Shown here: piece by piece, positions 24,630 through 30,194 of the stretch | Numbering within the stretch: the first letter of the stretch is position 1 | How the letters are laid out: each line of letters begins with the position of its first letter | DNA from: Candidatus Woesearchaeota archaeon | GTDB taxonomy: Archaea; Nanobdellota; Nanobdellia; Woesearchaeales; GCA-2687795 | Reading direction: 5' to 3' | DNA length: 37,616 nt | NCBI GenBank assembly: GCA_030753365.1 | Contig: JASMCJ010000050.1 | Coordinates: forward strand, 1-37,616 | Translations under genes and position numbers: made by a program | Notes under the pieces: model-generated | Told to the model about the DNA's origin: nothing | The model's database searches: none | The model's input: the letters and a program-made list of their open reading frames with translations, nothing else

Positions 24630-25868
24630 TCAATGAATTATCCCATAACCTATTAACCTAAACCTATTGCCTATCCTTCTTGAGATAGTAACTCTTGAGC
24701 CAACTTCAGTGCATACAGGTATTTTAAGCTTGCACTTGATTTTTTTCTTTACAAACTTGACAACCTGGCCTACTGTTGCAGTGCTGTTCACATTAAGCAT
24801 CAAAAGTTCTCCTAATTTAACTGGAGAAACTTTAAGTTCCTCTTTTGAACCTACTACTCTTTCCAATAAGTGAGGCTCTATCTCAAACTCATACCATACA
24901 TCAGGCAATTTTCCTTTTAAGCCAACAACAGAGCCTGTTAAATAATCTGATTTTACGATTGAAGGGTCTAAAGAAGTCAAGATACCTATTGTACCACCAG
25001 GTTTGACGTCTTTTACAGAAGCTCCTCCACTCTTTAATCCAGTAATCTTAGCTATGATTGGCTTATTAACAGTTTGATTCTTCTCTTCTGTGATTCTTCC
25101 AGGCTTGATTTCAATCTCCTGACCAACTTTTAACACGCCTCTCTTCAACGAACCTCCTAACACTCCCCCAGTTATATCTTTAGGCTTAATGCCTGGCTTG
25201 TTTATATCAAACGACCTTGCCACAACCATTAAAGGTGTTTCTTTAGAATCTCTTTTAGGAGTTTTAATTGTTTTTTCTATGACTTCTATTAAAGGTCTAA
25301 TGTTTACCTTATGAACTGCTGATATTGGAACGATAGGAGCATCTTTGTAGATTGTATTGCTGATAAAATTCTTTATTTCCTTATAATTCTTCTTTGCCTG
25401 CGCATCATCCACAAGGTCAACTTTATTCTGCACTATCACTATATTTTTTATACCTATGATTTCAAGCGCCATAATATGCTCTCTTGTTTGCGGCTGAGGA
25501 CAGTCTTCATTAGCTGCCACAAGCAGCAATGCTCCATCCATTAATGTAGCTCCGCTTAGCATTGTAGCCATTAAGCTTTCATGCCCAGGAGCATCTACAA
25601 AGCTTACTTTTCTTATAAACTTAGCCTTGCCTTTGCATTTCTCGCATTTATCTTTTGTAGTAAATATTTTGCATTTAGCGCACTTTCTGAAAACCGCATC
25701 CGCATAACCTAATCTAATAGTAATACCTTTCTTCAACTCTTCAGAATGAGTAGCAGCCCATTTCCCGCTCAATGCTTCAAGAAGCGTTGTTTTACCATGA
25801 TCAACATGTCCTATTAAGCCTATGTTTATCTCTGGCTGTATTTCTTCTTGTTTTTGTTTAACTGTCAT
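24630..25868 (-). CDS. translation initiation factor aIF2 subunit gamma
   Basis: A 412-residue GTPase subunit of archaeal IF2, which brings initiator Met-tRNA to the ribosome. G1 GHVDHGKT, G3 DAPGH, G4 NKVD and the zinc knuckle with CxxC pairs (CAKC, CEKC) near residues 58-79 are present, followed by the two beta-barrel domains. A TATA box at 25892-25900 (minus strand) is 28 nt before the ATG, so the message is probably leaderless. The alpha and beta subunits are not in the window. Confidence 0.97.
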   Translation of the reverse strand: MTVKQKQEEIQPEINIGLIGHVDHGKTTLLEALSGKWAATHSEELKKGITIRLGYADAVFRKCAKCKIFTTKDKCEKCKGKAKFIRKVSFVDAPGHESLMATMLSGATLMDGALLLVAANEDCPQPQTREHIMALEIIGIKNIVIVQNKVDLVDDAQAKKNYKEIKNFISNTIYKDAPIVPISAVHKVNIRPLIEVIEKTIKTPKRDSKETPLMVVARSFDINKPGIKPKDITGGVLGGSLKRGVLKVGQEIEIKPGRITEEKNQTVNKPIIAKITGLKSGGASVKDVKPGGTIGILTSLDPSIVKSDYLTGSVVGLKGKLPDVWYEFEIEPHLLERVVGSKEELKVSPVKLGELLMLNVNSTATVGQVVKFVKKKIKCKLKIPVCTEVGSRVTISRRIGNRFRLIGYGIIH

Positions 25869-25891
25869 CTAGAACATAAGAAAGCTGGATT

Positions 25892-25900
25892 GTTTATAAA
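25892..25900 (-). promoter_or_regulatory. TATA box for aIF2-gamma
   Basis: TTTATAAAC on the minus strand, centre 28 nt before the ATG at 25868. Confidence 0.6.
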
Positions 25901-25918
25901 TGTAACGACATATTCTGT

Positions 25919-26461
25919 TTATACAACTTTTTCTATTTCTTCGATTACTGTTTCAAGCTCTTTTTTACTATGCCTTTTCATTAGCTCAGCTCCAACTGCA
26001 ATACCAGTTAACATAACACATCCTATTACTGCTAAAGTTGAAGGTATTTTAGATGTTAAATATATTTGGTAAGCAGTCCATTCAGCAGAAAAATTTCTGA
26101 GTAATCCCCAAACAGGAGAATCGTTTTCAAGATGTATTATTGTATCTCTATTAGGATTATTATAATATTTAGCAACTACTGCAGAACCTGTTACAAGAGA
26201 ATCTAATCCTGGACCAAAGACACCACCAGCCATACCTCCATAAACTACATAATTTCTAGTATTTTGCATTGACTCATTAAAAATCAACCTATCAGAATCA
26301 CCTAAAGCAACACCAGCTGCACAAGAAGTAACTAATCTACCCTAATCAAATGCTAAATTACATAGTTTCAAATATGCTGTACCATAAGACTTTCTCCAGA
26401 AATTCATTATTTTATCTTCTTTGTATGCTGTATTAGAATCAGAAATTCTATGTTTGTGCAT
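25919..26461 (-). pseudogene. predicted membrane protein gene interrupted by one in-frame TAG
   Basis: From ATG 26461 the frame reads MHKHRISDSNTAYKEDKIMN to codon 39 (NLAFD). It meets TAG at 26344-26342 and continues without further stops as GRLVTSCAAGVALGDSDR to 25919. Total 180 codons plus stop. A minus-strand TATA box (26481-26489) 24 nt upstream supports this start. The second part has two hydrophobic segments (YVVYGGMAGGVFGPGLDSL; LAVIGCVMLTGIAVGAELM) and an acidic tail. Family not recognised. Either an inactivated gene, amber readthrough, or a shorter gene starting at TTG 26287 or ATG 26269 after an old 5' part. Confidence 0.65.
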
Positions 26462-26509
26462 ATAATTTGAGAAATCTATATAATATAAATAATTTTCTAC
26501 TCTTAAGTA

Positions 26510-26839
26510 CTATAATAATTTATTTTTATAAGGAAACCTCATGAACTTCTTGCATTTAAGGCAGTAATACACAACCTTTTCCTTTTGCAGCCTTACTCTG
26601 CAGTTCACACTTGGCTTTAGGTAAGAATAGCAGTGCTTGCAAAACCTTTTCTTAAGAGGAGAGGGTATTTTCACTTTATACTTCATTGCAATCTTCCTTG
26701 CAAGGCTTACATACCTGTTAGAAAGCTTCTTGTCTTCTTTGAAAGCTGAAGCTGCTTCTTTGAACAGTTTTCTAATCCTTTCCAAAGCTGTTTTTGTTTG
26801 ATAAGCAGGTTTTGGCTTGTACGCTCTCTTGTTTGCCAT
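26510..26839 (-). CDS. rnp4: ribonuclease P protein component 4 (Rpp21)
   Basis: A 109-residue protein of the Rpp21/Rnp4 family, a subunit of archaeal RNase P that trims tRNA 5' ends. It has a basic N-terminal helical part and the zinc ribbon CKHC ... CLKC in the second half. I start at ATG 26839, which directly follows the enolase stop (1-nt gap); the longer frame lies inside eno. It is thus translationally coupled to enolase. It ends with TAG. Confidence 0.93.
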   Translation of the reverse strand: MANKRAYKPKPAYQTKTALERIRKLFKEAASAFKEDKKLSNRYVSLARKIAMKYKVKIPSPLKKRFCKHCYSYLKPSVNCRVRLQKEKVVYYCLKCKKFMRFPYKNKLL

Positions 26840-26840
26840 A

Positions 26841-28079
26841 TTATCTCCCCAGCTCTTCTTCAATCCTCAAAAGCTGATTATACTTAGCCAATCTATCACT
26901 TCTACAAGGAGCTCCTGCCTTGATTTGTCCGCAGCTTATGCCTACTGCCAAGTCTGCTATAAAACTATCAGAGGTTTCACCTGAACGGTGGCTTACCATT
27001 ACGTTCCAGTTATTATCCATTGCAAGCTTTGCAGCATCCAATGCTTCTGTCAAAGTTCCGATTTGGTTTACTTTTAGAAGCAGAGCATTACAAGCCTTAG
27101 TCTCAACCGCTTTTTTAATCCTTTCCACATTTGTTACAAGAGAATCATCTCCAACAATCTGAACCTTTCTTCCTAAATTTTCTGTTATTGCAACAAAGCC
27201 TTCAGTATCATCCTGGCTGAAAGGGTCTTCTAATGAAATTATAGGAAACTCATCAACAAGCGATTCATATACTTTCAGCAGTTTGTTTTGTGAAAGATAC
27301 TTGTCGTCAACTAAATAACCTTTTCTTGAATAAAACTCTGAAGCTGCTGCATCAATTGCAATCTTTATCCTTTTTCCATAGCCTATTTCATCAATAGCCT
27401 TTGTTATAAGCTTCAAAGGTTCTCTTACTTTGTTTAGGTTAGGCGCAAAACCACCTTCATCTCCAACATTTGTTGAAGATTTGCCATATTTCTTGCCAAT
27501 AAGCTTTTTTAATGTATGATACGTCTCAGACCCTGCTCTCAATGATTCTCTAAATGTTTTGAACTTTGGAACTATCATAAACTCCTGGAATTGCAATCTA
27601 TTATCTGCATGCTTTCCGCCGTTTATGATGTTCATATACGGTGTTGGCAAAATGAACTTTTTATTTTGGAAGAGTGCACCAATGTATTTATAGAGAGGAG
27701 TTCTCTGGGTTTTTGAAGCTAATCTGCATGCTGCCAAGCTAACGCCAAGAATAGCATTTGCACCAAGCTTTTTCTTATTAGATGTTCCATCAAGTTTTAG
27801 CATTAATTCATCAATAAGCTTCTGATTTCCACAATTCTTGTTCCTTAATCTGGGAGCAATCTTTTTATTTACATTGTTAACAGCTTTTAGAACTCCTTTG
27901 CCAAGGTATCTTTTGGTTTTGTCCCTTAGCTCTAAAGCTTCATGGATTCCTGTGCTTGCTCCTGAGGGTACTTCTTCCCTTCCACGCTTATTTTTAGAAT
28001 AAACATCAACCTCAACTGTAGGGTTGCCTCTTGAGTCAAGGATTTCCCTTGCTTTGATTCTTGTAATCTTAGAATACAT
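26841..28079 (-). CDS. eno: enolase
   Basis: A 412-residue phosphopyruvate hydratase (2-phosphoglycerate to phosphoenolpyruvate). Recognisable stretches are EILDSRGNPTVEVDV at the start, PSGASTGIHEALELRD, the metal-binding SLEDPF, DEGGFAPN, the signature LLKVNQIGTLTEA and the catalytic-lysine-region VSHRSGETSD. A ribosome-binding AGGCG and a TATA box at 28118-28126, 43 nt before the ATG, imply a short leader. Cotranscribed with rnp4, an order seen in other archaeal genomes that also groups enolase with translation genes. Confidence 0.97.
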   Translation of the reverse strand: MYSKITRIKAREILDSRGNPTVEVDVYSKNKRGREEVPSGASTGIHEALELRDKTKRYLGKGVLKAVNNVNKKIAPRLRNKNCGNQKLIDELMLKLDGTSNKKKLGANAILGVSLAACRLASKTQRTPLYKYIGALFQNKKFILPTPYMNIINGGKHADNRLQFQEFMIVPKFKTFRESLRAGSETYHTLKKLIGKKYGKSSTNVGDEGGFAPNLNKVREPLKLITKAIDEIGYGKRIKIAIDAAASEFYSRKGYLVDDKYLSQNKLLKVYESLVDEFPIISLEDPFSQDDTEGFVAITENLGRKVQIVGDDSLVTNVERIKKAVETKACNALLLKVNQIGTLTEALDAAKLAMDNNWNVMVSHRSGETSDSFIADLAVGISCGQIKAGAPCRSDRLAKYNQLLRIEEELGR

Positions 28080-28142
28080 TAAGTTCGCCTCTTTTTATGT
28101 TATTCTAATTTAGTTAGTTTATATATTTTTCTGCAAAAAGAT

Positions 28143-30194
28143 TTATTTATCAACAAGCTCAGCCTTTTTTATAGCAAGCCTTGCAGTGTTTTCATCTTCT
28201 TTAACAACTTCTGAGCTAATAATTTTTATTTTCTTACTAAATAAAGGACAATCAAGAACAAGACTCTCAAACTCACCACCTTCTCCTGCAACATTAAGCC
28301 TTATTTTCTTATTCAGTTCTATTAGTTTGTTTAAATCTTTTTCTGTAATTTTCTTTCTTAACCAGTTTTCATCAAGCCCTTCAGCAGCAATACTACTGAA
28401 CACGATTTCAAATTTTTTTTCTAAAATCTCTTTCATTTCTGTTTCCTGATTAAGATGCCATAAGGGAGAGAATATCTTTAAACTTAACTTGTCTGCTACT
28501 CTTTCTATTCTTTCCCTTTGATAGTTTGAGAATAATGCGCCTGTTATAACCCCTTCAACATTATATTCTTTTTTTGCTTTCTTTAGCGCTTTTTCAAAGT
28601 CTTTTAGCTCCAGTTCTTTCTTTCCTTCTGTAGCTTGTTCAATTAGTGGGATATCCATTGCTTTTGATTGTAGTTTTACTATGTCAATATTAGGAGTATG
28701 GAACATATAAGAATCAGGGTTTTTACTTTTTATTGAAACTAAGCAACTTATGTCATAGTTCTGTCTCTTCATGACATAGGTTGCATAAATACTATCTTTC
28801 CCTCCTGAAACCAAAGCAGCTAGTCTTAAGTTATGTTCAGGATAGAATCTTCTTAGATATTCTGATTTATACTTTAATCCTGCTTTCTTTGTTAGTTTTG
28901 AAATGCCCCTGTCGAATTTGCTACCATATTGAGCAGCAATCTTTTTTCTCCATGCAAATTCTTTTTTTATTTTGAGTTTTTCAGCTAGCTCTCTTAGGAT
29001 TACTTTTTTATGAGAATCATTTATCTTATAAGACGCCGGGATTCTAAGTGAATATTCTATGAGTGATTTATCTAAGAATGGCACTCTAAGTTCAAGGTTG
29101 TTATGCATCGTGATCACATCATCCCTGTATGTGTCTCTTTCATACATTTTTAATAGGCCTGATACACATTCCTTGTTTATGTCAAGGGAATTCTTATGCC
29201 GTTCATAACCAGCAAAGATTTCCTCGCTTCCTAAGCCAGAGAAGATCACTTTACAGCCACCTTTCTTTGCTTGTTTACAGGCTGCATAGAATGTCAATGC
29301 AACGCCTGCTTTAACAACATTCGAATCTTCTATTAAAGGGATAATTGTTTTGAGATGTTTTTCTATGTCTTTAAGCTTAATTCTTATTATCTTAAGGTCT
29401 AAGCCTAGTTCCTTAGCTACTTTCTTTGATGATTGTAAATCTTTAGGTTCTTCCATGTTTGGATCATCTAAAGCTGCGGTATAACATGTGAATCTATGGC
29501 CTAGTTTCTTTAGTATGAATGCTATCAGTGTGCTGTCAATGCCGCCTGAGAATAAAAGACCGAATTTTCTTTTAGGAATCCTTTTCCTTATTGAGTCTGT
29601 TAATAATTTGTTTAATTGTTCTATTATCTTATCTTTATTATCTTTTATTTCATGTGTTATATCGAAGAAAGGCCTTTCAATGAATTCTATCTTGTTTTCT
29701 TTGATATTATAGATTAATATTTTTCTTGGATTTAATTCATTAATATCAAGGAAGCCAAGTTTCTCTAATACTTTCTTTTCTGATGCAAATGAAAAGCCAT
29801 TGTTATGAGAATACCATACTGGCTTTATCCCTATAATATCTCTGGCCAGATAAAGTTTGTTACCTTTTTTATATGCAAATGAGTATACGCCGTCAAGATC
29901 GTCTAATGCTTTGATTCCTTTCTCTTCTAATATCTTAAATAATAGTTCAGAATCGTTCTTTGCTTTGTATTTATTTAATGTTTCCCAGTTATAGATTTCA
30001 CAGTTAGAGACAAACTTTCCTTGTATTGGCTGTTTTACAGAACCAACAACTGAATGTAGAGTATGGCCTAAGGTAAACTTGTCTTCATTATGAAGATTGG
30101 TTCCATCCTTGCCTCGTTCCTTTAGGATTGTTAATCCTTTTTTTACTAATCCCAATGAATCCTCATTGTTGAAGATTCCTATTATGCCGCACAT
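28143..30194 (-). CDS. fusion: AsnB-like glutaminase/asparagine synthetase + Dph6-like diphthine-ammonia ligase
   Basis: A 683-residue two-enzyme fusion. Residues 1-180 are a class II glutamine amidotransferase domain (MCGIIGIF with Cys2, ARDIIGIKPVWY). Residues 190-430 are an asparagine-synthetase domain with PP-loop SGGIDS (216-221), SGLGSEEIFAGY and LELRVPFLD. Residues 455-683 are a diphthine-ammonia ligase (DUF71/Dph6) domain with its own PP-loop SGGKDS (463-468), SNYQRERIERV and AGEGGEFESLVLD. Dph6 makes the last step of diphthamide on elongation factor 2 and uses ammonia. The glutaminase is diverged: the usual NGEIYN is NCEIYN (64-69) and RGPD is RGKD, so its activity is uncertain. Its ammonia may feed either domain. 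No frameshift separates the halves. Confidence 0.93.
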   Translation of the reverse strand: MCGIIGIFNNEDSLGLVKKGLTILKERGKDGTNLHNEDKFTLGHTLHSVVGSVKQPIQGKFVSNCEIYNWETLNKYKAKNDSELLFKILEEKGIKALDDLDGVYSFAYKKGNKLYLARDIIGIKPVWYSHNNGFSFASEKKVLEKLGFLDINELNPRKILIYNIKENKIEFIERPFFDITHEIKDNKDKIIEQLNKLLTDSIRKRIPKRKFGLLFSGGIDSTLIAFILKKLGHRFTCYTAALDDPNMEEPKDLQSSKKVAKELGLDLKIIRIKLKDIEKHLKTIIPLIEDSNVVKAGVALTFYAACKQAKKGGCKVIFSGLGSEEIFAGYERHKNSLDINKECVSGLLKMYERDTYRDDVITMHNNLELRVPFLDKSLIEYSLRIPASYKINDSHKKVILRELAEKLKIKKEFAWRKKIAAQYGSKFDRGISKLTKKAGLKYKSEYLRRFYPEHNLRLAALVSGGKDSIYATYVMKRQNYDISCLVSIKSKNPDSYMFHTPNIDIVKLQSKAMDIPLIEQATEGKKELELKDFEKALKKAKKEYNVEGVITGALFSNYQRERIERVADKLSLKIFSPLWHLNQETEMKEILEKKFEIVFSSIAAEGLDENWLRKKITEKDLNKLIELNKKIRLNVAGEGGEFESLVLDCPLFSKKIKIISSEVVKEDENTARLAIKKAELVDK

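Follow-up and report, generated by a model that had tools for sequence, protein, structure and literature searches.

The 37,616-nucleotide stretch of DNA analysed here (the window; Candidatus Woesearchaeota archaeon, contig JASMCJ010000050.1) encodes a fusion protein in which a class-II glutamine amidotransferase domain (GAT), an AsnB-type PP-loop domain (PP1) and a Dph6 domain (PP2) follow one another (Table 1). Dph6 is the diphthine-ammonia ligase that completes the diphthamide modification on the translation factor EF2, and the fusion bears on the unsettled nitrogen source of this last step. The reading we favour, to which we give an even chance, is that of a dedicated diphthamide-supporting fusion, in which PP2 would act as Dph6, GAT would feed PP1, and PP1 would be a live, re-specialised synthetase.

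Table 1. Position in the window of the fusion gene and of its domains, with their supporting motifs
Feature	Position	Strand	Evidence
Whole fusion gene, 683 aa	28143..30194	(-)	Single ORF; Pfam/NCBIfam domains
Class-II glutamine amidotransferase domain (GAT), aa 1-160	29715..30194	(-)	Cys2, H44-x-L46-H47, N64-C65-E66, D81
AsnB-type PP-loop domain (PP1), aa 189-437	28884..29630	(-)	SGGIDS 216-221, L321, D358, E368-L369-R370, K418, AAQYGS 420-425
Dph6 (diphthine-ammonia ligase) domain (PP2), aa 457-683	28146..28826	(-)	SGGKDS 463-468, YQR 558-560, GEGGEFE 637-643

The open reading frame begins with ATG and contains no internal stop. Its product matched the Pfam domains GATase_7 (5.6e-14), Asn_synthase (1.2e-47) and Diphthami_syn_2 (1.5e-62), and an earlier note, made from the sequence alone, had rightly described one uninterrupted frame with a GAT and two PP-loops, motif positions included. 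Among NCBIfam models, the protein scored above the cut-off of Dph6_archaeal (TIGR03679; 274.2 vs 197.3 bits) and below that of asn_synth_AEB (TIGR01536; 254.8 vs 267.1 bits), the latter cut-off being passed by a stand-alone relative (L053; 271.1 bits). Automatic labels such as “asparagine synthetase” or plain “Dph6” are incomplete for such a protein. The whole chain was modelled with AlphaFold on an alignment of 48 sequences (pLDDT 93.2, pTM 0.88). Using Foldseek, the AsnB part was matched to E. coli AsnB (1ct9; TM 0.79) and human ASNS, and the Dph6 part to the Dph6 proteins PF0828 (3rk1; TM 0.93-0.95) and PH1257 (2d13). These two archaeal Dph6 are stand-alone proteins, unlike the fusion, but share with its C-terminal domain 36-40% identity (structure alignment) and all catalytic and EF2-facing residues; the PP-loop and the SYM, YQR and GEGGE motifs are all kept in PP2. 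With AsnB (1ct9) and ASNS (6gq3), the fusion shares the GAT and synthetase fold, Cys1, the PP-loop and K466, but it differs by the changes of Arg48 to Leu, Gly75 to Cys, Glu364 to Leu and Ala404 to Asp, by its AAQYGS motif and by a shorter C-terminus.

This architecture is already known. The order GAT-II, Asn_synthase, DUF71 (COG0367-COG2102 fusion) was first reported in 2012 by de Crecy-Lagard et al. (PMC3541065) in two Methanosarcinaceae (Methanohalophilus mahii and Methanosalsum zhilinae) and in the nanohaloarchaeon Ca. Nanosalinarum, with a domain order identical to that of the window fusion. The fusion is accordingly not undescribed; the earlier note knew of no characterised example. In the proposal of these authors, both PP-loop domains receive their NH3 from GAT, and the reviewer Aravind raised in the same paper the question of the reaction catalysed by the AsnB-like PP-loop. 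A search of open-access literature retrieved no experimental answer to it after 2012. The main text of the 2012 paper dealt with few examples and left the residues of the AsnB half unanalysed; what is new here is the commonness of the fusion across DPANN, its fixed signature residues and the existence of GAT-less and split forms. Added domains were also proposed as the ammonia source of yeast Dph6 (PMC3585130), but these RidA/YjgF domains are unrelated to those of the fusion and are C-terminal instead of N-terminal.

The genome that carries the fusion (897 kb, 94.5% complete) has a single PF01902 match, the fusion itself, and a profile search of this genome found no other Asn_synthase match, i.e. 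neither of the separate asnB and dph6 genes that the earlier note suggested looking for, the second of which it had named as a finding that would refute its reading. Its EF2 bears the diphthamide histidine motif DAIHRG and its Dph5 is full-length. Only the N-terminal half of Dph2 was found (L133, G000:C23:5380-5577, just upstream of DNA polymerase B). As the majority of genomes in the phylum split Dph2 into two genes (N-part of ~90 aa, C-part of ~220-280 aa) and Dph2 was detected in 58/58 phylum genomes tested, the absence of its C-half is probably due to an assembly gap; a split Dph2 is on record for one nanoarchaeon (PMC3655853). Glutamine synthetase was not found in this genome at the same level of completeness, and glutamine must therefore have another origin.

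Dph6 was present in 224 of the 236 phylum genomes sampled. Full fusions (i.e. open frames of at least 590 aa) occurred in about 77 of the 236, whereas 13 had a form of ~470-640 aa without a complete GAT and 129 a stand-alone Dph6, five being ambiguous. Relatives were retrieved from 23 other assemblies, with the same domain order in nearly all of them, and extended beyond the phylum to Nanohaloarchaeota, Diapherotrites, Micrarchaeota, Altiarchaeota and Methanosarcinaceae, which answers the earlier note's call for a survey of this order across archaea. The fusion family is old and common. It provides the sole PF01902 match in 73 of the 77 fused genomes (one of the four second matches being a weak fragment) and the only Dph6 in 7/7 tested genomes outside the phylum, including one of the Methanosarcinaceae. 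Canonical AsnB, whose relatives may have other roles, was about as frequent in genomes with the fusion (36%) as in those with a stand-alone Dph6 (29%; Fisher p=0.35), and the fusion as a stand-in for a missing AsnB was not supported.

Residues were checked one by one in 53 fusions from the window's phylum and related groups, with the numbering of human ASNS unless stated otherwise and residue roles taken from PMC6748925 and PMC11615228. In GAT, Cys1, Asn74, Glu76 and Asp96 were invariant (53/53). Arg48, which touches the glutamine substrate in human ASNS, was replaced by Leu in all 53 fusions and in 6/6 split forms (59/59; Leu46 in the window fusion); canonical AsnB from the same phylum retain Arg at this position (11/11). 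Gly75 was replaced by Cys in 51 of the 53 fusions. The motifs GHTLHSVV (43-50) and NCEIYN (64-69) of the window fusion, judged unusual in the earlier note, are accordingly near-invariant signatures of the family. That note allowed for a glutaminase that is inactive or changed in substrate: the fixation of the new residues favours a changed enzyme, and the four invariant residues speak against a dead one. The odd residues of both GAT and PP1 are fixed family signatures, not decay, and being so fixed they point to a changed specificity; since the glutamine-contacting Arg is lost, glutamine use by GAT is not assured.

As for PP1, it keeps the PP-loop (SGGxDS), Asp400, Arg403 and Lys466 (K418 in the fusion), together with D367 (E/D) and E368. 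At position 364, Glu has given way to Leu, Ile, Val or Thr (Leu321 in the window fusion), and none of the 71 aligned fused-type proteins is acidic there, unlike canonical AsnB, which have Asp or Glu in 11/11; in human ASNS, the E364A and E364Q variants are inactive in Asn synthesis (PMC6748925). Asparagine synthesis by PP1 is only weakened by this loss, because Asp358 (fusion numbering) might stand in for Glu364. The tunnel residue Ala404 was changed to Asp in 50/53 fusions, 12/12 GAT-less proteins and 6/6 split forms. In the PP1 tree, the fused-type clade stood apart from canonical AsnB with 100% support.

Twelve of the 13 GAT-incomplete proteins were examined, the remaining one (G035) being uncertain as it begins at a contig end. 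In eleven, PP1-PP2 has a start of its own and the upstream DNA contains no GAT; the twelfth (L065:120-2027) retains the C-terminal part of GAT, without the Cys and with YIYNW for NCEIYNW, and represents a GAT loss part-way. These proteins were scattered over at least about three places in the PP1 tree; GAT was lost in about three or more lineages, in which PP1-PP2 was kept with an intact ATP site. In most GAT-less genomes, no matching GAT was found elsewhere, the matches there being canonical AsnB or weak, and relocation of GAT was rejected for most of them; G007, G203 and G170 correspond to contig breaks, and the apparent GAT-less case of G010 to an overlapping split reading frame. At L033, GAT (1949-2425) and PP1-PP2 (532-1968) lie in different, overlapping frames without linker, which is either a real split or a frameshift.

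Among the full fusions, 46 PP1 positions reach a conservation of 90% or more. In the GAT-less proteins, 36 of these remain conserved, Lys418, Asp358 (fusion numbering) and the entire PP-loop among them. The ten that relax include Glu368-Leu369-Arg370 of the fusion (human 414-416): Arg370 fell from 52/53 full fusions to 0/12 GAT-less proteins and Glu368 from 52/53 to 5/12, the compared proteins being related, so that p-values overstate. In the human enzyme, Glu414 is adjacent to the site of the glutaminase, and Leu415 forms part of the tunnel wall (PMC6748925, PMC11615228). This conservation pattern suggests that GAT and PP1 are functionally coupled wherever both are present and that, where GAT is missing, PP1 retains an ATP-consuming function of its own, and it argues against PP1 as a mere conduit or scaffold. 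The direct channelling of ammonia from GAT to Dph6 put forward in the earlier note is not supported, as the co-conserved interface runs from GAT to PP1 and natural GAT-less forms keep the PP1 PP-loop intact. The model of a GAT-less protein reached a pTM of 0.65, its PP1-PP2 arrangement being unsure.

Six genomes (G122, G067, G229, G221, G045 and G005) encode a separate GAT-PP1 protein (465-548 aa, with signature residues as in fusions) and a separate dph6. The split forms were nested among fused ones in the PP1 tree, their dph6 lying beside stand-alone dph6 in the Dph6 tree; as the split parts grouped together in both trees, one dph6 excepted, co-inheritance and a functional link between them are suggested. 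A few stand-alone Dph6 genes were nested among fused ones in the Dph6 tree; the whole GAT-PP1 module is therefore losable and the need of Dph6 for it is not strict.

Under the favoured reading of a dedicated fusion, PP2 would adenylate and then amidate diphthine on EF2, as in established Dph6 chemistry. GAT would hydrolyse an amide donor, most likely glutamine held in an altered manner, and the ammonia would enter the PP1 site via the usual AsnB-type interface. PP1 would be a live ATP-using synthetase, no ordinary asparagine synthetase given the presumed move of the acidic residue of its acceptor pocket, and would support the last diphthamide step either by ATP-dependent ammonia release or relay to PP2 or by amidation of a partner substrate. 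Against this reading, the residues kept in PP1 (D367(E/D), E368, D400, R403 and K466) may still accommodate aspartate, L053 exceeds the asparagine-synthase cut-off, GAT-PP1 was dropped from some nested Dph6 genes and GAT lost its glutamine-contacting Arg. The proposal that PP1 performs a non-asparagine ATP-dependent amidation tied to EF2 diphthamide, with an acceptor pocket re-built by the loss of Glu364 and the gain of Asp358 and with free ammonia where GAT is lost, seems to us rather unlikely; if true, two distinct PP-loop ligases would serve one modification from one chain.

Close to the 2012 proposal, GAT-PP1 could be a working asparagine synthetase to which Dph6 is merely attached, perhaps with ammonia in common. 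The AsnB fold, the retention of most Asp- and ATP-binding residues, the lack of another Asn_synthase-family gene found in the fusion's genome and the score of the stand-alone L053 make this possible, albeit on the unlikely side, for the non-acidic residue at position 364 (71/71) is a change that kills human ASNS, Arg48 is lost throughout (59/59), canonical AsnB is as frequent with the fusion as without it, and fusion, fission and co-inheritance all bind the GAT-PP1 module to Dph6. An AsnB half devoid of catalysis, serving Dph6 only as a structural or EF2-docking part, would agree with the loss of Arg48 and Glu364, the repeated loss of GAT and the broken PP1 loop of L060, but we hold it for improbable: decay would not fix new residues, nor does it fit with Cys1, N74, E76 and D96 in 53/53 fusions or with SGGxDS, D358, K418 and AAQY being almost invariant, GAT-less forms included. 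An accidental joining of ordinary AsnB and dph6 genes in assembly, for which nothing speaks except that both families are common, is refuted by the occurrence of the fusion in dozens of independent genomes and by their common, fully supported PP1 clade. With the residue swaps and the GAT-less and split versions, targeted and inexpensive mutants as well as naturally occurring controls are available for the PP1 question.

Some minor observations were also made. In the window (24630-30194, minus strand), the fusion is closely followed, on the same strand, by the genes of enolase, a putative RNase P protein and aIF2-gamma; this order was seen in none of the relatives' loci, and there was no conserved neighbourhood, a single compared locus (L041) having a flanking gene in common (aIF2-gamma). 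One protein (L060:770-2635) combines an intact GAT signature with a PP1 loop shortened to SGNDS. Finally, the PP2 loop ends in KDG or KDC instead of KDS in four fused copies (L048, L066, L072 and L089), and two of the corresponding genomes (G106 and G114) carry a second Dph6 match.
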